Part shown: piece after piece, positions 1 through 51,778 of the stretch
Numbering within the stretch: position 1 is the first letter of the stretch
Layout of the letters: the number at the start of each line of letters is the position of its first letter
NCBI GenBank assembly: GCA_021234155.1
Contig: JAJEKV010000046.1
Coordinates: forward strand, 9,987,012-10,051,011
Source: Isoetes taiwanensis
Lineage: Eukaryota > Streptophyta > Lycopodiopsida > Isoetales > Isoetaceae
Reading direction: 5' to 3'
Length of the DNA stretch: 64,000 nt
The notes under the pieces: generated by a model
What the model was told of the DNA's origin: nothing
The model's input: the letters and a program-made list of their open reading frames with translations, nothing else
Databases searched by the model: none
Made by a program: the position numbers and the translations under genes

Positions 1-2256
1 CTATTACATTTTTTCATGCATATATCTTTATAGCGCCTTGGACTACGATAAGAGCATCGACATGAAAAGATTTGACAAAGAGGCCACAAGAAGACCATAA
101 AGACCAGCATAAAAAAAACCATGGAAAAGATTTCCCCCCAATTTTCTTTATCATTCGCATTTTCAATTTCATCTTCACTAATATCTGAGGATCCTCCAGG
201 AATGAATTCAAACATTTTATTTTTAGGAGAGACAGGAAGATTTAAAAGATTTTTGCATAAAAGATGGGGAAAGAGAAGAAACATGACCTGGATTGCTGTT
301 TTCCTCAGGTTGAGTTAGGTCTTCTTGCTGGACAACAGTAATTTCTTGAGTAGAATCAGCTGTCATATTCTTATCACTATCCAACCAATTATTGTCATAT
401 TCCAGGCCAGTTGCATCCCTTTCTGGAGTATCTTGTACAATGCAAAGATGTCACCTTGAAGCAATATCAAAGGCAATATTTGAAGGTTGGAGGGGAGGAT
501 CGGGGCTGGTGAAAGATCAATAATTGGTGATTGTATAGGGTTCAACTTGCCTTCACATGGTTTGCTCAACAAAACTTTCAAATCAAGTTCAGGGTTAAGG
601 TTAGCTAATACCTGGAATTGGTTAGAGTTACCAATTACGTGATCAGCAGCCATCTGAGATTCTTGAACAGGACTTGATTCAGCAACATTCCTTGGGAGAA
701 TAATATGATTGTTCTCCATTGATATAGCAGGAATAGGTGCTGGAACAACCTCCACCAGAGTATCTTTGGGGTCAATCATAGACTGTTCATTTTCCAGCCT
801 ATTTTGTTTCAGAGATTTACCATGCTTATTTTTCTTGTTTAATGGACCATTCTTAACCATGTAGGAGTTGAGAATATCAGCATTCTCCTTGCTCTTGGCA
901 GAAAACTTAGCATCCATAATAATTTTGTTCAATGTGTCATGTAGATTACTGACTTTTGACAAGCTGTTATCCTTTTCAGTGATTTTGGCTGAATTTTCAT
1001 GGTTTTGCAACACATTGACTTGCTGAGCTTTACCATTCCTAGAGGTGTACACAAAATCACCTCTAGTCTTTCCCTTATTAGATGATACCCCATTCTTACA
1101 TTCTGCTTCTCTTAACTGCTTTCTCCTTTGAATTCTTTTGTAGCTGCCATTAACTTTAGTCCACTGAAAATTGCTATCTTTGGAGATAATGCATGGATCA
1201 CCAAGGTCAAGATCTTGATGATCAATAACTGATCCTTTTGAATTTTGCATAATCTGCTGACTGTTAACCTCATTACTGATATTGACTTTTTGGTTGACCT
1301 GCTCATTAACTCGACAGTTATCAGATAACTTTATAGCAGCATTTAAATTCTGCTCACAAGTAGCTGATAAATCCTTGCAGGAATCATACTAAAAGTGTCT
1401 AACCTTACAATTTTGGCACTGAGGTGGCAAGCCTGACCATCTCAAATCCAGAGAGGCTTCTTTCCCAAAAACATCTTGAAAGGGAATGTGGAGGGGAATG
1501 TCTTTGGAAATATCAATCTGGACAATGGAGCGGGGTGGTCTATAGGGGGAGAATTCAGTGCAAATATAAGAACCAATTGAGTCAAATAAGAGTTTAAGAC
1601 AATCTTCATTCCAGTATATTGGGTTTAGACCATGAAGGGTGGTAGAAGCAACACAAAGATTGTCCAAATTGGCTACTTCAAATTTGGGATCCCATTTAAG
1701 AAAGGTAAGTTGGAAGGATTCGAAAGCCATGGGACCATGATTTAGTAGAAAATTGGCAGATCTTTTACTGCCACATTCAATCATAATATATGGAAAGTGA
1801 AGCCAGTAAACAACATTTATAAGCATACCCTTCTGAAGGTTCAGGCAGAAAGACCAAAGCTTGTCTAATTTAATCCCATGCTTATTTGTTTTAACAATTA
1901 CAGCAGAGTCATGGAATGAGTTTAATTTTGCATGAACAGAAGGGAGATCTAAGGAAATACCATTGAAAGTAGCCTTCTTTCTGGCACTGAACGGACCCTT
2001 GAAAGGGCGGATATCTCCTAGGATCTTGTCCATAGTAGCATCTGAAGACATTGGTTGATCCGATCTTTTGTCCCCATAAGCAATAGGAATTTGGAGGACG
2101 GGGTCAATGCTTGGCAGTCGGCCTAAGAAATCCGGATCCTTGGAAAGATTATCCCAGCATGGGACTCTAAAAGATAACGGATCCATTGAAGACTGCCCAA
2201 TGCATGAGTTAGCAAAATTACCAAAGAAAATGAAATTTTTAGGATTTTCATGAAGT
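1..2256 (-). pseudogene. LINE (L1-type) ORF1 remnant, DUF4283/zinc-knuckle class
   Basis: Two minus-strand reading frames (about 2270-1389 and 1250-363) read as one degenerate ORF1 of a plant L1-type retrotransposon, the nucleic-acid-binding protein of its RNP. The first frame has the look of plant LINE ORF1 and ends at a partial zinc knuckle (LPPQCQNCKVRHF). The second is the hydrophilic Lys/Asn/Ser-rich tail that normally follows the knuckle. A stop separates them, and further frameshifts near 450 and 240 carry the tail into other frames (for example DKNMTADSTQEITVVQQ), so the gene is dead. The element would continue to its ORF2 beyond position 1. Its 5' end is fused to 25S rRNA near 2256. 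I infer the family from composition and domain order, not from a search. Confidence 0.65.
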
Positions 2257-3330
2257 GAGTTGTTACACACTCCTTAGCGGATTTTGACTTCCATGACCAC
2301 CGTCCTGCTGTCTTAATCAATCAACACCCTTTGTGGGATCTAGGTTAGCGCGCACTTAAGCCCCGTAACCCGGCTTTCGGTTCATCCCGGATCGCCAATT
2401 CTGCTTACCAAAAATGGCCCACTTGGAACTCCAATTCCAGGGCCGGGGTTCAATATAGCAACCCGGCACCTTACCTATTTAAATTTTGAGAATAGGTCGA
2501 GAGTTTCTTCCCCGATGCCTCTAATCATTCGCTTTACCCGATAGAACTTTGAATGAGCTCCAGCTATCCCGAGGAAAACTTAGGAGAGAACCAGCTACTA
2601 GATGGTTCGATTAGTTTTTCGCCCCTATACCCAAGTCTGACGAACGATTTGCACGTCAGTATCGCTACAAGCCTCCACCAGAGTTTCCTCTGGCTTCCTC
2701 CTGCTCAGGCATAGTTCACCATCTTTCAGGTCCCAACAGGCGTGCTCATACTCAAACCTTTCACAGAAGATCATGGTCGGCACATGGTGCACCCGACAAC
2801 AAGGCTCCCACACATTAGTTTCCTTTCGCCAAGACGGATTTTGAATCCACCAACTCACACGTATGTTAGACTCCTTGGTCCGTGTTTCAAGACGAGTCGA
2901 ATGGAAAGCCTCACAAGCCAATGTCAGGAGCGCATAGGTGCATGGTAGCCCGCCAATATGGCATGTGTCCCAGGCCCAAGCCCACCTACGTCATCATCGG
3001 GTCACATGGTCCCTCTTTATCCTGCAGACGGAGCCAACGTTGGCCGGCACCCCGAGTTGACCGGGCAAACCAGCCGAGGCCGTTCCACACCCAACCAGAG
3101 CACACCAACAACCTCCATTCGCTTTCCTCCCAGCAATTTCAAGCACTTTTTAACTCTCTTTTCAAAGTCCTTTTCACCTTTCCCTCGTGGTACTTGTTTG
3201 CTATCGATCTCTTGCCAATATTCAGCTTTGGATGGAATTTACCACCCACTTAAGGCTGCATCGACTCGTGGAGAGCGTCTCGTGGAGCAACAGGGTCCGG
3301 GCCTGATGGGGTTCTCACCCTCTTAGGCAT
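2256..3330 (-). rRNA. Degenerate 25S rRNA fragment (5' part of the large-subunit rRNA)
   Basis: The reverse complement reads as nuclear plant 25S rRNA, from the region with AGAGAGTTAAAAAGTGCTTG (near 3150) through GTGAACTATGCCTGAGC and GCAAATCGTTCGTCAGAC to GTGTAACAACTCAC near 2260. It covers about 1.07 kb of the 5' half of the molecule. Many substitutions and small indels relative to what I know of the plant consensus, plus loss of both ends, make it a pseudogene rather than a working rDNA unit. No 5.8S or 18S sequence adjoins it. At its 3' side it joins LINE ORF1 sequence in the same sense. Confidence 0.9.
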
Positions 3331-4330
3331 CCACTTCCATCATGACTGTCAAAAGAATCCCTCTAGTGATAAACTTGCTATACTATTTGACCTCCACCAT
3401 AGAGTATAGGGCTTCTGCTGCAGAGGGTGTACCCCAAAGAAGTGGTACTGATCATTAATAACTTTTCATCAGGCGACCTGATCCTTTCTTTGCAGTTGCT
3501 ACAACCTGTTTTGAACATGTAAAACACCTCATATGCAAAGAAAAAATATTAATCTACTTAAGCAGAATGAAGGTGATAATTTCAACATGTCCTCCTTGCT
3601 CAATCAGAGTGTCCCGATAAAATCTAAAGACACATAGCCTGCATCTTATATTCAGTTCCTGGATGACGTGCCCTACTCAAATAAGTAAGCATGAAAATCC
3701 TAAAAATAGAAGAAATTGAACAAAACATCAAACTTTAACAGAACTTAACCCTAATGGCTATTTGAAGGATCTTCAATCCTTATGAAGAAAGCAGACTTGC
3801 ATACTTATGAAGGAGTGTGCAAAGCCAAGCACAAAAGGAAAGTGGAGACAATTTTTTTTGGCACAACCACAGAGATACTGGTGCAGAAATTAAATTTCTC
3901 AACTGATTCCAGAAGAGCTTAGCAATTAATTGAATGGAAAACCAACTGAGGAAACAAACATTAGACTAACAAAATCAAACGTGGATGCATCAAAGTCTTA
4001 AGTAACCAGCAACAACTGTAAATAGGCACTTGGATTGAGAAATGAATGTAGATTTTTATGGCACACAGTCTTGCCATTGATAGCACAAAATACAACAACA
4101 GATGCAATGATGAAATAAATAAATAAATTAATTAAATTGATTATTAAGAGTAGAGAAAATAGAATAGAGTTTTTATCGTTCATGGGGACAAGTTGGCCTA
4201 TGGAACCCAAACAAGAGGCGCAATAAGCATATTACTGTCCAAGTTAAAAAAACTCCCTCCCCACCCCAAAGGATTGTTTGGGGAAGAAACTGTGACATGC
4301 CATAGGTTTGCTGTCAAACTGTACAAATAC
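3331..4330. other. Unannotated stretch, no gene seen
   Basis: This is AT-rich sequence between the rRNA fragment and the LINE tail. It holds a short AAAT run near 4113-4130. No reading frame with recognisable protein character was found on either strand. Confidence 0.5.
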
Positions 4331-15660: not shown

Positions 15661-16385
15661 TTCTGTCTTATACAACTCAAACAGTTACCCAGTTGCCATA
15701 CACCCATTTAAAACAAGCACAACTGCCACCAACCACAGATACTTCTTGTTGAATTTATTGCTCTGCATGAGGCAAAAGCTCTAGAGGAGTTTCCTTGAGG
15801 GTAAAGGGCAGCACTCTAAGCAGACAAAAACATGTATAACCTATTTTGCACCAGGTGATAGAGAAAACACCTGGGATGCTCTAATCTTTCATATTTCATT
15901 CTAGTAGAATGTATACCTGTTCATACGTCCAAATAATAACCAGACATTAATAACCTCTCCTCAGTAAACCTTCTATGCCTCATGATTGTGACTTGCATAA
16001 GCTACGTCACCACGTGGGGAGACACATAGGGAGAGACTCTTTCTTGCTTGATGGTTTCTGTAAGACTAGTTATATAAACATCAACCTTTCCAAAACAAGG
16101 CCAGGTTTTCAATGAAACAATTTAGTACCAGTGTGGGGGCAGACAGGAAATAATGAAGTATTATGACAAACAAGATGCAAATGCAACGGTTCCCCTTGTC
16201 TCAATAGTAAGCAATTGAAATACTAAGCAATTCAAAATTGACGGCTTTGTGGCAAAGCAATTTGCTTTTTTATATAAGAAGCTACGAGTTTAGAGTTTAG
16301 ACTCTTCTAATATATTGTGCTATTGTTGTTCCTCTTTTATAAGTTACAAGAAATTTATTGCGGCAACCTATTTCTTTGGCTATGA

Positions 16386-16675
16386 ACCTGTGGAATAGTT
16401 GTGTAAATTTCAATTGTGATGAAAACTCTCTTCAACATGTGTGGAATAGTTGTGTAAATTTCAATTGTGATGAAAACTCTCTTCAACATGTGGGAAATGA
16501 ACCCACTGTTGAGAAATGAGCCTACTATGAACCTGTGGAATAGTTGTGTAAATTTCAATTGTGATGAAAACTCTCTTCAACATGTGTGGAATAGTCGTGT
16601 AAATTTCAATTGTGATGAAAACTCTCTTCAACATGTGGGAAATGAACCCACTGTTGAGAAATGAGCCTACTATGA
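16386..16675. repeat. 145-bp tandem duplication (two units) containing 51-bp subrepeats
   Basis: Units 16,386-16,530 and 16,531-16,675 are nearly identical. Each holds two copies of a 51-bp subunit beginning GTGGAATAGTTGTGTAAATT, and each ends in the sequence around the left TRIM boundary, including 24 bp of LTR (TGTTGAGAAATGAGCCTACT then ATGA). The junction sits at a shared CTATGA. The duplication therefore happened after the TRIM inserted. Confidence 0.9.
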
Positions 16676-16680
16676 TTGGG

Positions 16681-16752
16681 TGGACAGGCTGGGGATTGAA
16701 CCCAGGACCTCTTGCTTGCAAGCCAAGTACTCTACCACTGAGCTACCGGCCC
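16681..16752 (-). tRNA. tRNA-Ala(UGC)-like sequence inside the 3' LTR of the TRIM
   Basis: The 72 nt can be folded as a tRNA: acceptor GGGCCGG against CCTGTCC (six of seven pairs, with G3:U70), D arm GCTC-AGTGGTA-GAGT, anticodon stem CTTGG/GCAAG with one G-G mismatch, 7-nt loop CTTGCAA (anticodon TGC), variable AGGTC, T stem CTGGG/CCCAG, and discriminator A. The B box here is GGTTCAATCCC, one change from consensus. CCA is not encoded. I treat it as an element-borne tRNA-like promoter, not a housekeeping tRNA gene. Confidence 0.7.
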
Positions 16753-17009
16753 TTTGATGGGCTTTCGGTACTCTTCCACTGAGTCATTCTTCATGTGTGC
16801 CCATTACACATACTCCAACATTCCAACATTCCCCCTTAATGGGCACACCAATCCATTCCAGCCTTCACCACAATCCACATGCTCCCCTCCTCGGGCAACT
16901 CCACCACTGCGGGAGTTGGGCTTTCCACTGGCCAAGCTTTGCTCATTCTCACCCCTACACCACTGGGGACTATCCCGGTGCAGTTAAGCACCCTTTACTT
17001 GGGACCATG

Positions 17010-17021
17010 GCTCTGATACCA
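17010..17021 (-). other. Primer-binding site of the TRIM (initiator tRNA-Met)
   Basis: The minus strand reads TGGTATCAGAGC directly after the 5' LTR, matching the standard methionine primer site of plant LTR elements. Two further bases (CA) also fit. Confidence 0.92.
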
Positions 17022-17050
17022 AGTTGAGAAATGAGCCTACTATGATTGGG

Positions 17051-17122
17051 TGGACAGGCTGGGGATCGAACCCAGGACCTCTTGCTTGCAAGCCAAGTAC
17101 TCTACCACTGAGCTACCGGCCC
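17051..17122 (-). tRNA. tRNA-Ala(UGC)-like sequence inside the 5' LTR of the TRIM
   Basis: Same 72-nt fold as the copy at 16,681, but with an intact B box (GGTTCGATCCC). An A box fits TAGCTCAGTGGTAGAG. A partial second A-box-like copy (GACTCAGTGGAAGAGTAC) lies about 42 bp upstream in the same LTR, as though half a tRNA had been duplicated. If it recruits Pol III, transcription would start near the beginning of the tRNA-like block and run toward the primer site. Confidence 0.72.
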
Positions 17123-17339
17123 TTTGATGGGCTTTCGGTACTCTTCCACTGAGTCATTCTTCATGTGTGCCCATTACACATACTCCAACATTCCAACACC
17201 CACATCTATTGTCCTATACTGCTTCGGTTCAGTGGAGTATTGTTTTTCATTTATAATGTACTTCATGAATTGTGTTAGCCCAACATCAGATTTGCATGCT
17301 GTGATTACTGCTTAAGCTGTTTCTACAATTTATTTTTAG

Positions 17340-44034: not shown

Positions 44035-45396
44035 AACTCCGGCGTGGCTCTTGAAGTGGCGTCCGAAGTGCTGCTAGTTGACCTTCTAAAGCAGATATGC
44101 GGACATCTCCTTGAGCCACGAGATGAAGCTGACGGGTGTAATCACTGCGTAACCCTGTGCAAATCCTGGTTGTTAGCAAGAATTTTGTCTTTATCTTTGA
44201 ATTGAGCCAGAAGTTCTTGAATAGTGGCTTGCAGTTGAACTTGCTGGTCTTCTAACATGGCACTTTTGTCTTGTTCAGCTTTGAGAGCGTCACGATCTGT
44301 AGTAAGGCAGTATGCTTACATTGAAGGTTGTCTTCTAGAGTTTGAACTTGAGTGATGGCAGCCTGGAATTCACAGTGAACAGTATCCGTGGAATCCACAT
44401 ACTCTGTGACGTCATTCATGAATTTCTCCTGCGAATCTCGAAGTCTAAGCATGCATTCAGCTACTACTTGCAAGGAGGGCCATAGAATGACAGATACAGT
44501 GCGCTGAGAGACTTGTTGGAAGTATGAATTTTCGATTTCCGTGGACTGAGAGGATGGGACATTGATGACAGGACCCCGGCGTGGCTCTTGAGGTTGTGGA
44601 AATGGCTGCTCTTCAGGAAGGTGACGGGAACTTTCTTCTTGAAGTTCTTTGATGGCAGGAATGGTGGAAGAAGTCTGGTGACTGGAGGCCTGAGAAGTGG
44701 CATCAAGATTTGTAGGAGATAATTGACTGGGCGCAGGGAGACAATGGTTGATGATAGCTTGAAAATTTGCACCCATTGTGGATTCTAGGCCGGAACCTGG
44801 AGACTGGCGAATGCGATCAACTTCATGAAGTAGGCACTGGAACATTATCTGAAGCCAATCAACAAAACTCGTGGCGCGACAATGGCAGTGTGGAAAAAAT
44901 GTTTGTTAATGTGGGTGTTCTTTATGGAATAACCATAGAACTTCCACCAAAGAAACTTGGCAAAGGCTTCATGGCTTTGCAATATTGGTAAACTTGTGAG
45001 TAGTGGCCACATAGGGACTTTGGCCATAAACTGTGACGTCATGATCCTGCAAAGCAGCCCAATTCAAAGAAGGTGTTCTTCTAGGTAATTGAAATACATG
45101 AGCTAGAAGATTCTGATTGATGGTGATACGATTTTGATCGACCACCGTTTCATAACCTGCATCAGTCTTGACAAGATGAGCGACAAACTGCTGAATTTGA
45201 GTGGGATTAGAAACAGGAGTTCTTGCTTGGAGAACTCAAACAACCCTGCCCTTTCAGCAACTTCTCTACTTATGCCTTCCAAAGGATCTCGAACAGTTGC
45301 AGTGGAGAAAATATCAGATTTAAAAAACGCGGGATCCATTGGTGCGGTGGCCTGGAGAGTTGGAAGCTTTGGAGAAGCGGCCATGGCGATCGACAA
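44035..45396 (-). pseudogene. Extra 3' ORF of the Ty3/gypsy element (env position)
   Basis: Starts with MAASPKLPTLQATAPMDPAF near 45,380 and continues through a frameshift to a block containing a HVFQLPRRTPSLNW-like segment. It then runs as a 197-codon frame (44,845-44,252) rich in Gln/Ser with a coiled-coil-like stretch. The middle block resembles the 'putative plant transposon protein' region seen downstream of integrase in some plant Ty3 elements. No signal peptide or membrane segment marks it as a true envelope. The frame is cut off at the truncated element end. Confidence 0.5.
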
Positions 45397-45453
45397 GGAA
45401 AAGTTATGAAAGCGGAAGACGGAGAGTGAAAGAGTTGCGAAAACTTTTAGGGT

Positions 45454-45774
45454 GTGCGTCTGTTCAGGAAGGTTCGGGCGGCAGGACTATATAAGACGAG
45501 CAAAGTTGCGAGAGGAGAACACCAGTTTACTGCGATGGATATGCCCAACATCATGCCCAAGAATTGTAACGAATGGATTACATGCAAGATGACGGATTTC
45601 GACCTGTGGAAGATGTGTAACCGAGGGATCCCAATGGACGGGTGGCTGGCTGGGTCGGCGGATAATCCCTACCCCATGACTAATCCGCATGATGTGGTCC
45701 TGCATCTGCGCTGGGACCCGGAGCAGTGCCTTTACCTGATCCTGCGTGCTACCGCTGCTCCGAATGCTGAGTAG
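45454..45774 (+). CDS. 106-codon ORF antisense to the retroelement, between IN and the 3' ORF
   Basis: An uninterrupted plus-strand frame with good protein composition (MTDFDLWKMCNRGIPMDGWL, HDVVLHLRWDPEQCLYLILR), lying in the gap between integrase and the 3' ORF. Some Tat-lineage plant elements carry an antisense ORF at this place, so it may be that. I do not recognise a domain, and chance openness remains possible. Confidence 0.35.
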   Translation: MRLFRKVRAAGLYKTSKVARGEHQFTAMDMPNIMPKNCNEWITCKMTDFDLWKMCNRGIPMDGWLAGSADNPYPMTNPHDVVLHLRWDPEQCLYLILRATAAPNAE

Positions 45775-45889
45775 GAGCTTTTAGTTTAGGATTTTGTATA
45801 TAGGACAGATCCCTTGGCGAGTAATATATGGGCAATGCCCAATTTTGTATGATACTGGGGCAGTTTTTAATATAAATATGTTTCTTGCC

Positions 45890-47305
45890 TCACTCTTGTG
45901 TTTCTATGTCTGAGCTTGAGTCATTTGTGTCGGTATGAAAAATTTTAAGGCAAAAGCCATTAACCAGAGTAGGTAATGGAGTGTCATCTAATTCAGTGAG
46001 TTGAAACACACTGGGTTGCACCACTTTAAGAATCTGATAAGGACCAAGCCAGCGAAACTTCAATTTCCGCGGAAAGGTTTTGTATCTGGAATCGTAAAGA
46101 AGAACCAAATCTCCTTCCTTGAATGTCTTTGCTTGCTTGTCATGCCATGATTTCCTTAATTGTTGCCCAGTGAGAACGTGAAGATATGCGTCTCTGCGAA
46201 GCTCATCCAACAGTTGTAATTGATAGACTCGTTCTTGGAGTGCAGTAGGTGGATCATGCACCGTAGCCAGTTGAAAACGGAGAGATGGAAGAACATACTC
46301 AAAAGGTATGAGAGCCTCCTGGCCATAAACCAATTTGAATGGTGCGTGCCCGATAGCAATTTTGAAACTAGTATTATAAGCCCACAGAACAGTAGATAGT
46401 TTTTCCTGCCAGTCAGTGCGAGAAGCATCACAAATTTTCTTCAAGATGGTAATGAGTCTTATTTGTGCTTTCGGCCAGGCCATTCCCTTGTGGATAATAG
46501 GGAGTGGGTAAAAGCATGTTAAGGTGTACCACTTTTGGAACCACTTTAGTGACCCTAACGTGGGGGTGTGCTCTTTCTGTGATGAATGTGTAAATAATCC
46601 GTCAATTCCTTGATGGTCTGATTTACAAAATGAACACCACGATCACTAACAAGTTCCGTGGCATAGCCAAAATGCGTGATGACATGCCTCCGCCCACTTG
46701 GTGGCATAATCTGTAAGAACTAGTATGTAGCGGGCACGGGTGTGCCGTGCGGGTGGATCCATTGGCCCAATAAAGTCCATTCCCTATTTGCTGAAGGGTA
46801 ATGGGGTGGCAACTGGGGTTAAAGGGAGAGCATCATGGGCCGTGGGTCGACCCACATGCTGACAGACGTTATAGTTGCGTGCTTGAGCGTAGGCATCCTT
46901 GAAGAGCGTGGGCACAATCTCTGGTACTTCTTGAGAAAGAACACACCGACACAAAACCATGTCCTTGCCACGTTTATAGAGATGGCCCGCAACCATGGTA
47001 TAGTCACGGACCTCACGGAGGAACTGTTGACGGTGTGACCGGAGCTTCTCAGAAGAGAGCATGGGGCCTTCAGACGGGAATGCACCAGAGAGGAGATACT
47101 GCTGATAGTCATGAAACCAATGGAGCATGGCCGTGACCAATAACGGTTGTGCATCTGGAAAGACATCAGAAACACCCGTGGACGGGTCGTCCGTGTGGAT
47201 GCGTGAGAGATAATCTGGCACAACATGAGATTTATCAGCCTTGTGAATGATCTCAAAGGGAGCAAATTCTTGTAGGAGCAGGACCCAATGGGCAATGCGA
47301 CTCAT
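45890..47305 (-). pseudogene. Integrase region of the Ty3/gypsy element
   Basis: Begins after RNase H with RIAHWVLLLQEFAPFEIIHK and VVPDYLSR, then a degenerate zinc-binding segment. A core fragment GMDFIGPMDPPARHTRARYI follows near 46,780 and contains the first catalytic Asp. After stops, the frame 46,483-45,890 gives the C-terminal part (WAYNTSFKIAIGHAPFKLVY, then KFRWLGPYQILKVVQPSVFQ). The middle of the DDE core is destroyed by stops and frameshifts. It would normally join element cDNA to host DNA. Confidence 0.85.
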
Positions 47306-47319
47306 GGATGTGGTTTTGT

Positions 47320-49109
47320 TGATCAGATAAAGAAGAGCTTGATGATCAACAAAAATTTGATTTTGCTACCCAACAAATAATGACGGAATCGTTGGACACA
47401 GAAGACAAGGCCCAGCAGTTCCCTTTCCATGGCTGAATAATTTCGCTCAGCTGGATTAAGTTTCCTGCTAGCATAGCAAATAGTTTTATCTGTGTGCACG
47501 TCATATGCTTGAGAAAGAACAGCACCAATCGCAAAAGCTGAGACATCGACATGGACATGAAGGGGTTTGTCCCACTGAGGGGGAACAAGATCCGGAGCTT
47601 GAGTTAGCAAGATCTTCAGCCTTTGAAATGCTGCATTCGCCTAGGGATTTCAAGCCCAAGACGATTCATCACCCGTGAGTTTATGAATGGGATCAGCAAT
47701 GGCATCAAGTCCAAGAATGAAGGTTGCATAGTAATTGACTTTACCCAAGAAGGAGCGTGTCTCTTTGATGTTCGAAGGTGCGTACGCCTTCAGCACACAA
47801 CTGATTTTGGCAGGATCCTTGGTGATGTCTTCTTTACTGACAACATGACCAAGAAGGACACCAGAGGTGACACAGAAAGTACATTTTTTTGGATTTGGAC
47901 TGATACCAGACTCATCAGATTCTTTGAAAAACAAGCTCTAATTTGTCAAGATGTTCTTCCATGGAGCTATATGCCAAAAAATTATCCTGAAAATTTTGTA
48001 GGAAGGCATTGTCTTTCATGTAATCTTGAAATACAGAAAGCATGATACGTTGAAAAGTGGATGGAGAATTTGATAAGCCAAAAGGGACCACTTTGCAGGC
48101 AAAAGTGCTCCATGGCGTGGTGAAAGTGGTTTTCAATTGATCCTCAGCCCTGATAGAGATTTGATTGTATCCCGGAAAACCATCCATGAAGGAGTACATT
48201 TCATGGCCGGCTACCGCTTCAAGATCTTGGTCTGTGAAGGATAGCGGGAAATGATCCCTCTATGTGGCCTGATTTAATTTCCTGTAGTCCACACAAACGC
48301 GTATTTTGCCATTGTGCTTGAGAGCAATTACAATTGAGTTCATCCACTCTGAGTGTTTGACCTCATAAATCAAGCTAGCTGCAAGAAATTTGTCTATTTC
48401 GGCTTTGACACGGTCACGATAGTTGGGGTTGAGCTTGTACTGTCGTTGCTAGATTGGACATGCATCAGGTTTGGGTGGGAGTGGTTAGTTCCCCCAACTA
48501 TTTCTTGATACCCCATAAGGCTTTGTAGCTCCACGCAAAGATGTGCTTGAACTTCTTGAAAAGGGTGATAGCACGAGCTTTATAGTTGGGTGGAAGATTT
48601 GCAGCCAACCTGACAGGTTCATTATCGCCAAGATCCGCGACTTCCACTTCTGGAGTTTGAACGTGCGAGACTACTTCTGTGTCATTGACAACATGAGCAG
48701 GAGGTTGGAGCATCACGGGTGGTACAGCACTCTGTGTCGTGAAAAAGAGAGGCTGCTGAGTGTCATCAAGTAATGGTTGCTTCATGACAGCAACAACATC
48801 AACAACATTATGAGGAGCGTCACTTTTGAGGAAAATATCCACTCACTGGATCCTTTTGCAAGGGGCCAGATATGGATCCAGTAAAGCAGCCACAGCCAGC
48901 TCTTGATCGAGGGTCATCTTGCCCCACGGATCTGCATACTCAGGATAAGAAGACAGAGGAAGATCTGCTGGAGGAGCATGAACATGATAAATATTTTGAG
49001 CTTCTTCTAAATCACTATATGAGAGAGATGGCGCAGCATGCTCAACAGAAATGAGCTTTCCAGTTTTCGGGTCCATGGTGGCATTCAGTGTGGCGCACTG
49101 TGATGTCAA
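47320..49109 (-). pseudogene. Reverse transcriptase and RNase H of the Ty3/gypsy element
   Basis: Pieces in order: N-terminal linker (49,109-48,498), RT palm (FMDGFPGYNQISIRAEDQLK, FTTPWSTFACKVVPFGLSNS, 48,199-47,915), thumb (LGHVVSKEDITKDPAKI, RSFLGKVNYYATFI) and RNase H (HVHVDVSAFAIGAVLSQAYD, ICYASRKLNPAERNYSAMER). The frames are broken between each piece. The catalytic YxDD box is not present; its place reads FQDNFLAYS, so both metal-binding Asp residues are not retained as a pair. The enzyme would be dead even if the frames were intact. Confidence 0.9.
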
Positions 49110-49203
49110 GTTGATCAGTTGCCCAATAACGAATGCTCTTAGCCTGGCGGAGGAAAGGTCGTCCTACTAGCATTTCATAGTCACCCGGATCTTCATCAGC
49201 TTT

Positions 49204-49923
49204 CTAAACACCAAATTCCAAGGGAAATTTGAGATCCCCAATACTGATGTGGAGAAGAAGGGTGACACCTTGAGGTCGCGTGATGTGGCCATTAGCAAGC
49301 TTGATGTCATAGGGGGCACGATAAAGTTGCTTGATGCCCACCTGTTTTTGAAGCTTGTCCGTGATGAGGTTGACGGCACTACCGCCATCAATTTGCATAT
49401 GATTGATCTGTTGATTTTCCACCATGGCGCGTACCGTTGTGGTAGAAGTGGCTACAACACCTACCAGGACCGTGGGTAGGGGCAACTGTTCATTGAGAGT
49501 GGGACACAGTTTGAGGATAGTAGCACTCAGGGGAATCTTAATTTTTGCCAGTTCCTCTTGGAGTTCTAAGGGAACATGTGAGAAAGGATCTGCAGGATCC
49601 AAGGGTGCAGGAGTCTGAGGCATGGACGCAGAGACTTCCTTGAGGAGCTCCACTTCAGCAGCAATGTTGGAGTACTGCTGAGTGCATGGGTTTTTTGACA
49701 TGGAGGGTGCTTCCTGACGTTGTTGGGCACGTGTGGTGGCATGAACATTGACAAGCGTGCGACCTTTCGTAGCTTGCATAATTTTGAGAATGCTTTGGCG
49801 CACCTTAGGCATTACATGAGGCATGAGCTTATCAAGATCAGGGTCAAAATGGACCGTTTTGTGCTCATGTGGAATGGTGTCCACAGCAAACGCAGGTTGC
49901 ATGTCATGTGGTATGATCGTCAA
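49204..49923 (-). pseudogene. Aspartic protease region of the Ty3/gypsy element
   Basis: A 239-codon open frame. The active-site loop reads MQIDGGSAVNLIT, a DGGS variant in place of DTG/DSG that is common in plant retroelement proteases. It is followed by a flap-like segment (HITRPQGVTLLLHISIGDLK). The first 120 residues are a linker rich in Gln/Pro/Glu. It would normally mature the Gag-Pol polyprotein. Confidence 0.8.
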
Positions 49924-50083
49924 TGAGCATGATGCCTTGGTCTGGCAGACCAGACCAACCCAATTTGATGGCTGTACCGGAGAATTAAGAACTTGATAGA
50001 TTTCTACCTAAGCTTGTTGATCCAGAGTGGTGGAGGGTGCCCTTGTTGAGGTCTCTGCTGCTATGGTGGGCGAGGGGGTTTCT

Positions 50084-51735
50084 TCAAGACCTAACCTGGG
50101 CCCTGTTTGCCATTGGTGACCCAAAGTTGGTACGCCGTAAGGCGAACTGAAGCCGTTTGATTTGTGTCTGGCAGCTGAACTTGGACTTGAGGAAGCTGAG
50201 GACATGCCGTGGTGGTATGACCCCATTCTTGACAGTGATAACACTGAGCTTTCGAAGGATCAAAAGGAGTCTGGAACCTTGACCATGAGATTGTTGGGGT
50301 TGTTGAACCTGTTGATATTGTTGAGGCAGATATGAATACTGTTGCTGGGCCGTGGTCTGCACCTGGAAGACCATTTTTTGCCTGAAGGGTGTAGGATGCG
50401 CACGGGTACACTCTTCAGCGGAATGATTGCACATATTGCAACGTTTACAGTGAGGAGGACAATTGGTAGAGTTGCACTCATTTGCAAGATGACCCTTGTA
50501 CTTGCAGATGTGACACCAAATCTGACTTTTTTGAGGAAGAGCAGACTGCTGAGATTGTATCGCATTATGAGGAACCATGACAGGTGGCATGAAGGGAAGC
50601 TCTGTGAGGGAAACACCGCGAGAAGACACATTGACGGAGTGGTTCACCAATTCGATAGCTTGCTCCAAAGTCTTAGGAGGGAGGTACTAGGTCATGAGAT
50701 GAATGGCAGGAGGGAGACCCTACAGAAACCAGACGAGAATCTGGCTCTGCGTGGGGTACTCTTTAAACTTGCTGACAAGGATTTGGAGACGATCCGCAAA
50801 ATCACGGGCAGACTCCGTGGGTTGTTGCTGTAGATCATTGAGCTGCTTCAGAAGCTGCTGATCATCATCTGTATAATGTGAGAGGAAGGCAGTTTTCATC
50901 TCTTGCCAGTTTTGTTTCCAGTGACTTTTGTTGGCCATGAGCCACTGATGAGGGGCTCCTCGCAGGTGGAGAAAATGTGGAACTTGAGTTGAGGCTGAGA
51001 ATGGCCATTCAGAATAGCCAAGGCCTCAAATTCCTCCATATGAGCTTGGGCACTTTGATCTAGGGGTTTCCCTTTGATGTTCCCAAAAATCGGATACGTG
51101 AGCTTAAGATTTTGAACAGGGGACGGAGGCGAAACTTGCGTGTAGAGTGGTGGAGCATAAGTGGGAATATAACCCTGAGGCACAGCCGTGGGCTGGGGAC
51201 AAGGTGGTGGCATAGGAACTGAGAAACCATGTGGTCCAGAGAGAGGAGCGTCCGTGGGCAAAGGGCCGTGGGAGCTGTCCTCGTTTAACTTGAGATCAGT
51301 AATGTTGTAAACGGGAACTGAGTGCTGAAAGGAAGGGGAAGACTGAAATTCATGAACATGGGGAGGGCCAAAAGAGACATCTGGATAGCCCATCCCCGCC
51401 TGAGGAGAAGAGGGTTGCGAAGGCAAAGGAGTGTGACCGGAAGGGATATGAATGTAAGTGTTGTCTGGAGTCTGAAAATAATGAGGAGTAGGATGGACCG
51501 GTGTATGGTGTGGCAACTGTGGTTGAGAGCAGTGCTTGCAAATAGGGGGAGACCCTGGTCGAGAACTGACACGAGGATTGGGCGGTGTCGTCTGAGCACG
51601 TGAGCGGACACGGCCTCCTTCGATATCATAATCAGGATCATACATTTCGTGAGCAGTTTGAAGGCACTGACGACGTTCCAATCGGGCTGCAGTTTGGCTA
51701 AGGAGTTCCTCAGGAGTGAAAGCTCGAGCAGACAT
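50084..51735 (-). pseudogene. Gag of the Ty3/gypsy element with three CCHC zinc knuckles
   Basis: The frame from 51,735 has a Pro-rich N-terminus, then the retrotransposon gag domain (KLTYPIFGNIKGKPLDQSAQ; after a frameshift QNWQEMKTAFLSHYTDDDQQ and ESARDFADRLQILVSKFKEY). A C-terminal frame (50,668-50,084) has knuckles CHICKYKGHLANEC and CKRCNMCNHSAEEC, and a third, CYHCQEWGHTTTAC, in a shifted frame. It would form the particle and bind element RNA. At least two frameshifts break it. Confidence 0.88.
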
Positions 51736-51760
51736 ACTGATATGAGAGAAATAGAACTAA

Positions 51761-51778
51761 GACCCGGCATGGGCGCCA
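51761..51778 (-). other. Primer-binding site of the Ty3/gypsy element
   Basis: One base inside the LTR end the minus strand reads TGGCGCCCATGCCGGGTC, the TGGCGCC-type site used by Athila/Tat-like plant elements. Confidence 0.8.

Follow-up and report, generated by a model that had tools for sequence, protein, structure and literature searches.

The element and its tRNA-like block

The window, by which we mean the whole 64,000-nucleotide stretch of Isoetes taiwanensis DNA analyzed here, holds a complete, young TRIM whose LTRs each carry a tRNA-like sequence. The element lies on the minus strand at 16652..17198 and is 547 bp long, consisting of a 177 bp 5' LTR (17022..17198), a 193 bp internal region (16829..17021) without an ORF of 120 aa or more, and a 177 bp 3' LTR (16652..16828). 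Directly after the 5' LTR is the primer binding site TGGTATCAGAGC (17010..17021, minus strand), which we take to be the complement of the 3' end of the initiator Met tRNA, and directly before the 3' LTR is a polypurine tract, AAGGGGGAA (16829..16837, minus strand). Copies of the target site duplication CCCAC flank the element at 16647..16651 and 17199..17203. An earlier sequence-only reading of this DNA had described the 177 bp LTRs with their two differences, the methionine primer site, the polypurine tract and the CCCAC duplication, and its anatomy and coordinates proved right, with the element being on the minus strand.

The two differences between the LTRs are at LTR position 132 (G/A, within the B box) and at the last base, position 177 (T/A). 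The final base of the 5' LTR is A in 25 of 26 paired genome copies, the window copy being the sole exception, so its terminal T seems to be private to this copy. At 16380-16675 the left flank consists of a 145 bp tandem duplication (99% match) that takes in the outer 24 bp of the LTR, copied at 16507..16530 (minus strand), together with a copy of CCCAC, and it was therefore probably formed after the TRIM inserted. A 12 bp perfect inverted repeat, GTGTGCCCATTA, spans the junction between polypurine tract and 3' LTR (16795-16806 and 16837-16848), and might fold into a hairpin where the plus strand is primed; its LTR arm recurs at 17165-17176.

Elsewhere in the window there are three adjacent fragments of eukaryotic LSU rRNA at 2176-3473 (minus strand; Rfam, 163-271 bits), which appear to be the pieces of one broken nuclear copy, and fragmented ORFs at 44252-51770 (minus strand) with gag-protease and Tf2-1-like SH3 similarity below the Pfam cut-offs, probably a decayed Gypsy element. 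TAXi_C and peroxidase domains are also present and fit a land plant. The assembly greatly exceeds the genome of Selaginella in size.

The tRNA-Ala(TGC)-like block occupies LTR positions 77-148, which correspond to 17051..17122 in the 5' LTR and 16681..16752 in the 3' LTR (both minus strand), and these score 62.3 and 62.2 bits against the Rfam tRNA model, for which the gathering score is 29. ARAGORN independently called tRNA-Ala(TGC) at 17049-17122 and 16679-16752, on the sense strand of the element. The 72-nt tRNA-like block with A and B boxes that had been claimed for each LTR is thus called by both programs in both LTRs. Published box motifs are TRGCY and YGG for the A box and GGTTC for the B box (PMC10886601). 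The A-box region of the 5' LTR is TAGCTCAGTGGTAGAG (17100..17115, minus strand; LTR 84-99) and its B-box region is GGGTTCGATCC (17063..17073, minus strand; LTR 126-136), while the B-box region of the 3' LTR, GGGTTCAATCC (16693..16703, minus strand), holds the G/A difference. Upstream of the block in the 5' LTR is a partial copy of the tRNA 5' half, CTCAGTGGAAGAGTAC (17138..17153, minus strand), with 15 of 16 bases identical; its score of 14 was equalled by 8 of 5000 dinucleotide shuffles.

Among 76 full LTRs in the genome, defined as LTR matches running from position 12 or less to position 170 or more, the anticodon bases and the bases G3 and A73 are conserved in all 76, and T70 in 75. We take the G3:U70 pair and A73 to be alanine identity elements, in agreement with the TGC anticodon of the block. 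In folding predictions the cloverleaf reaches -18.5 kcal/mol compared to -20.5 kcal/mol for the best fold, so the tRNA fold would be a fair one, not a dominant one.

A multi-copy family that moved recently

We surveyed the window's own assembly (1.658 Gb, 1110 contigs), which gave 382 first-look candidate loci, of which 40 were scored. The earlier reading had set paired LTRs in other copies as a check on the TRIM call, and these were found: the order LTR, interior, LTR is present in 40/40 scored loci, some of them incomplete, and exact 5-bp duplications bracket 28 of the 36 loci that have intact outer ends, the duplication being shifted by one base in one locus and lacking in seven. This count omits the four loci with truncated outer LTRs (L026, L032, L035 and L038), and one locus among the 28, L027, was scored at a shorter LTR start. 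Tandem arrays of the form LTR-interior-LTR-interior-LTR and longer occur at three loci (L005, L033 and L040) and possibly at a fourth, L016. In 31 simple pairs, nine have no substitution between their LTRs and the median K2P distance is 0.0115, and these undated distances indicate that the family moved recently.

Pattern searches gave 46 matches with up to two mismatches for a 50-nt pattern covering the LTR end, primer binding site and adjoining interior, 228 matches with up to three mismatches for a 54-nt pattern of the tRNA block, and 250 matches with up to three mismatches for a 44-nt U3 pattern. The reversed-pattern control for the first and the controls for the other two gave no match. 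With this many copies in the genome, chance is excluded as the origin of the structure seen in the window. Solo LTRs were also found. Among six places with a single LTR, exact duplications flank three (L044, L054 and L058), one has a duplication with one mismatch (L046), one has none in register (L080), and the sixth, L077, is a fusion with a Copia element. A shorter form of the LTR, starting at position 9, exists as well, for example at L058 (ATAAG duplication) and L078 (AAAAG duplication).

The tRNA block is a feature of the family

ARAGORN called a tRNA in 67 of the 76 full LTRs (66 Ala(TGC) and one Ala(GGC)) and none in the other nine. LTRs were also chosen by the U3 pattern, which lies outside the tRNA: we took 20 in list order from 100 listed of the 250 U3 matches (exact or with one mismatch), passing over loci retrieved before, the second member of any pair, and C1045, C1065, C368, C907:47756841 and C923. 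Of these 20, 19 matched the block, with a match of just 39 nt at L097; at L096, the remaining one, the LTR match stops at position 90. ARAGORN returned 11 tRNAs from the 20 (nine Ala(TGC), one Thr and one Val). Conversely, when exact matches to the tRNA pattern were opened (L041-L070), 30/30 proved to lie inside such LTRs, several of them belonging to the same element. The earlier reading would have been refuted if most other copies had lacked the block; by these calls and matches, the block is instead a feature of the family.

The mean non-majority fraction is 0.017 across LTR positions 77-149 compared to 0.050 at 1-76 and 0.055 at 150-176, making the block about three times less variable than the rest of the LTR. 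Columns in which at least 4 of the 76 LTRs have a minor base number 4 of 73 inside the block and 17 of 103 outside it (Fisher p = 0.033); with thresholds of at least 2 and at least 8 the same test gives p = 0.097 and 0.082, and with first LTRs only (n = 37) the three thresholds give p = 0.043, 0.009 and 0.027. Judged from these alignments, the constraint on the block appears modest, and the column test is no more than suggestive.

Relation to known elements

The sequence-only reading had left it an open question whether elements of this class have been described. They have: TRIMs with a tRNA-derived sequence in the LTR were defined as Helenus (TRIMp3) by Kojima 2024 (PMC10886601). The family shares with Helenus a short, non-coding structure with two LTRs, a primer binding site and a polypurine tract, and in each LTR an A and a B box within sequence derived from a tRNA. 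The 5-bp duplications of plant and fungal Helenus are likewise found here, as in the exact duplications counted above and in CCCAC at the window copy. The sole plant listed for Helenus is Selaginella moellendorffii, with an LTR of 120 bp and an interior of 85 bp (PMC10886601). The Isoetes family, which we liken to the Selaginella elements by description and not by sequence, differs from them in its 177 bp LTRs, its 193 bp interior, its Ala-type tRNA and its Copia composite, described below. Fungal Helenus has been linked to Copia, and Pol III transcription of Helenus itself has been expected, not shown (PMC10886601). A 2026 meeting report mentions Helenus without new plants in the portion available (PMC12859917), and no other plant Helenus appears among the matches listed in the literature outside subscription papers and Repbase.

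Like Cassandra, the window element is a plant TRIM whose LTR includes a gene of the Pol III type, and it has the primer binding site TGGTATCAGAGC (Cassandra site as given in the accessible part of PMC7215508), but Cassandra carries 5S rRNA, whereas Rfam at its gathering score finds only a tRNA and no 5S in the window element, and we rejected this assignment. A tRNA SINE was rejected on account of the paired LTRs with 5-bp duplications, the primer binding site and the polypurine tract. In structure and in their LTR-interior-LTR-interior-LTR arrays the copies resemble the ordinary and tandem-array plant TRIMs of Gao 2016 (PMC4717578, as far as its main text describes them), a main text in which a word-start search for tRNA gave no hit. 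A 41-nt segment of the tRNA block had no match in viral contigs.

Composite insertions with a Ty1/Copia element

Two matches to the tRNA pattern lying 5,008 bp apart on contig C109 led to a composite insertion, L071. Read from one GAATT to the other, it consists of a tRNA-bearing LTR, a primer binding site, Copia gag and pol, a polypurine tract and the first 250-odd bases of a different LTR, which has no tRNA call, followed by a TRIM part made up of a primer binding site, TRIM interior, polypurine tract and second tRNA-bearing LTR. Four of five coding pieces gave Pfam matches (Retrotran_gag_2, zf-CCHC, Pol_BBD, gag_pre-integrs, rve, SH3_retrovirus and RVT_2), and the fifth, of 109 aa, gave none. 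A second composite, L081 on C963, has flanks that align with those of L071 and the same GAATT, so the two are one insertion in a homologous segment and count once. Within each composite the two outer tRNA-bearing LTRs are free of substitutions: 176 positions were aligned in L071, with four gap columns, and 177 in L081, with one. The TRIM interior of the composite is approximately 86% like the nearest fetched copies.

The different LTR of the composite has 15 matches in the genome, including those at both composite loci. Paired matches lie 4.7 kb apart on C1059, 4.3 kb apart on C1048 and 2.4 kb apart on C1078, and these look like Copias with LTRs of their own. When element ends were compared, the C1059 Copia was 97-100% identical to the composite in the leader and 91% at the 3' end, and the C1048 Copia 88-92% and 79%; the ends of these two Copias have no similarity to the TRIM LTR or interior.

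An exact pattern joining the end of the tRNA-bearing LTR, the primer binding site and the Copia-type GCTA matched four times, at C109, C963, C907 and C1038. The locus on C907 is an insertion of 325 bp, flanked on either side by CGTTC, that contains a tRNA-bearing LTR, a primer binding site, a related gag start (identified by eye) and the last bases of an LTR. The locus on C1038 joins TRIM interior, tRNA-bearing LTR and a third gag start. No further tRNA-bearing LTR was found there in the two stretches searched, one of 0.8 kb upstream and one of 3 kb at 3663600-3666600, which lie 2.6 kb apart. Both of these fusions are incomplete, and the three joined loci (C109/C963, C907 and C1038) have distinct Copia leaders. 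At C1038 a different LTR-like end with the B-box-like sequence GGGTTCAAACCC precedes the TRIM interior (L088, 592-721), and a 47-nt pattern of this end had one match at up to three mismatches.

Template switching between RNAs packaged together seems to be the best explanation of the composite. Its two junctions coincide with a primer site in one case and come within approximately 7 nt of one in the other. The observed order would result if the reverse transcriptase changed template once, near the primer site, leaving TRIM RNA for Copia RNA, and if plus-strand transfer then took its normal course. On this basis, the Copia clade whose gag-pol is fused to the tRNA-bearing LTR in the composite is most likely the mobilizer of the TRIM. 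Template switching has been proposed for other elements (Sabot and Schulman 2007, PMC1950507, in the portion of the paper seen). The complexes treated there resemble ours in having two elements within one pair of 5-bp duplications and differ in that they are LTR-retrotransposons such as Opie, where ours joins a TRIM and a Copia.

Proposed transcription and replication cycle

A CAA triplet is found at positions -4 to -2 of the block, its bases being kept in 73, 75 and 76 of the 76 LTRs. According to the available part of one study, CAA triplets upstream of plant tRNA genes raise expression in vitro and most plant tRNA genes are followed by poly(T) stops (PMC11700998). The block lacks such a stop, unlike most of the tRNA genes described in that part of the study. 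We scanned 30 of the 40 loci for runs of four T (T4), taking those with two LTRs only and near-complete ends, and there was no T4 run between the block and the element end in 30/30 simple copies; two runs that were listed sit at the outer left edge. The first downstream T4 run lies at a median of 112 bp into the flank (range 2-800). Because shuffled sequence is also without a T4 run in 61% of cases, this absence is not evidence of selection. With no T4 run inside, Pol III would be expected to transcribe the whole element and to terminate in host DNA.

We consider it probable that the TRIM belongs to a young family of many copies, of the Helenus kind and with a Pol III-driven cycle, which is mobilized by the Copia clade of the composite. 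In such a cycle, Pol III factors would bind the A and B boxes in the block of the 5' LTR and transcription would start a few bases upstream of the block; the RNA would cover the interior and all of the 3' LTR, end in the host flank and be taken up into Ty1/Copia particles. Priming at the primer binding site would then be by initiator Met tRNA, the 100-odd nt from the tRNA start to the LTR end would act as R for strand transfer, the polypurine tract would prime the plus strand, and the Copia integrase would insert the DNA with a 5-bp duplication. The primer binding site, polypurine tract and duplications that these last steps would use or leave are present in the element. Strand transfer would still be permitted under such a start, since everything between the tRNA start and the LTR end, which forms the 5' end of the RNA, is present again in full in the 3' LTR. 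Pol III transcription of the element is, throughout, a prediction from its promoter-like features.

Alternative explanations

The tRNA-like sequence could be a chance insertion peculiar to the window copy, a reading whose probability is negligible given that it is refuted by the 228 pattern matches, the 67 of 76 ARAGORN calls and the block in 19 of the 20 LTRs that were chosen without regard to it. It could instead be a passenger throughout the family, a functionless remnant of an old SINE or tRNA insertion, with the LTR serving as a Pol II promoter, as it does in ordinary TRIMs. The upstream partial copy of the A box suggests that the tRNA part has been rearranged, and modest constraint on the block would also suit a passenger, whereas the near invariance of the A and B boxes, the CAA triplet, the anticodon, G3:T70 and A73 argues against one, as does the genome search, which found no LTR with the block cleanly missing (a search of limited power, both exact flanks being present in only 30 of the 76 LTRs). 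We regard the passenger explanation as rather unlikely and favor the Pol III-driven cycle.

The composite in turn may have arisen when a Copia and a TRIM that had already integrated recombined as DNA, in which case it would say nothing about the mobilizer. Recombinant complexes outnumbered template-switch complexes 20 to 2 in a Triticeae survey, according to the part of that paper seen (PMC1950507), and the TRIM interior of the composite is approximately 14% away from its nearest fetched copies. Against this, a single GAATT duplication brackets the whole composite, its outer LTRs are free of substitutions, and its junctions fall where template switching with plus-strand transfer would put them, and we judge recombination to be the improbable origin and template switching the preferred one. 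A further possibility, that template switching has put tRNA-bearing LTRs onto coding Copia ends and thereby let a protein-coding element move with an LTR of the Pol III type, strikes us as doubtful. Kojima 2024 judged a long LTR stretch shared by TRIMp3 and an autonomous element to be unlikely (PMC10886601).

Significance

The element is ordinary within its class, a recently named kind, but comes with unusually direct evidence for its partner. What is new is a Helenus-type family in a 1.66-Gb plant genome and a TRIM/Copia composite with a single GAATT duplication. Helenus was described from sequence analysis, and in plants from one species (PMC10886601). For annotators of tRNA genes the family is a warning, as the genome holds 228 close matches to the block and the 30 exact ones opened were all inside LTRs of this kind. 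With its many copies without LTR differences, and with the composite, the family opens to testing both the role of tRNA-bearing LTRs as promoters for Pol III and the identity of the autonomous element that mobilizes a Pol III-type TRIM.
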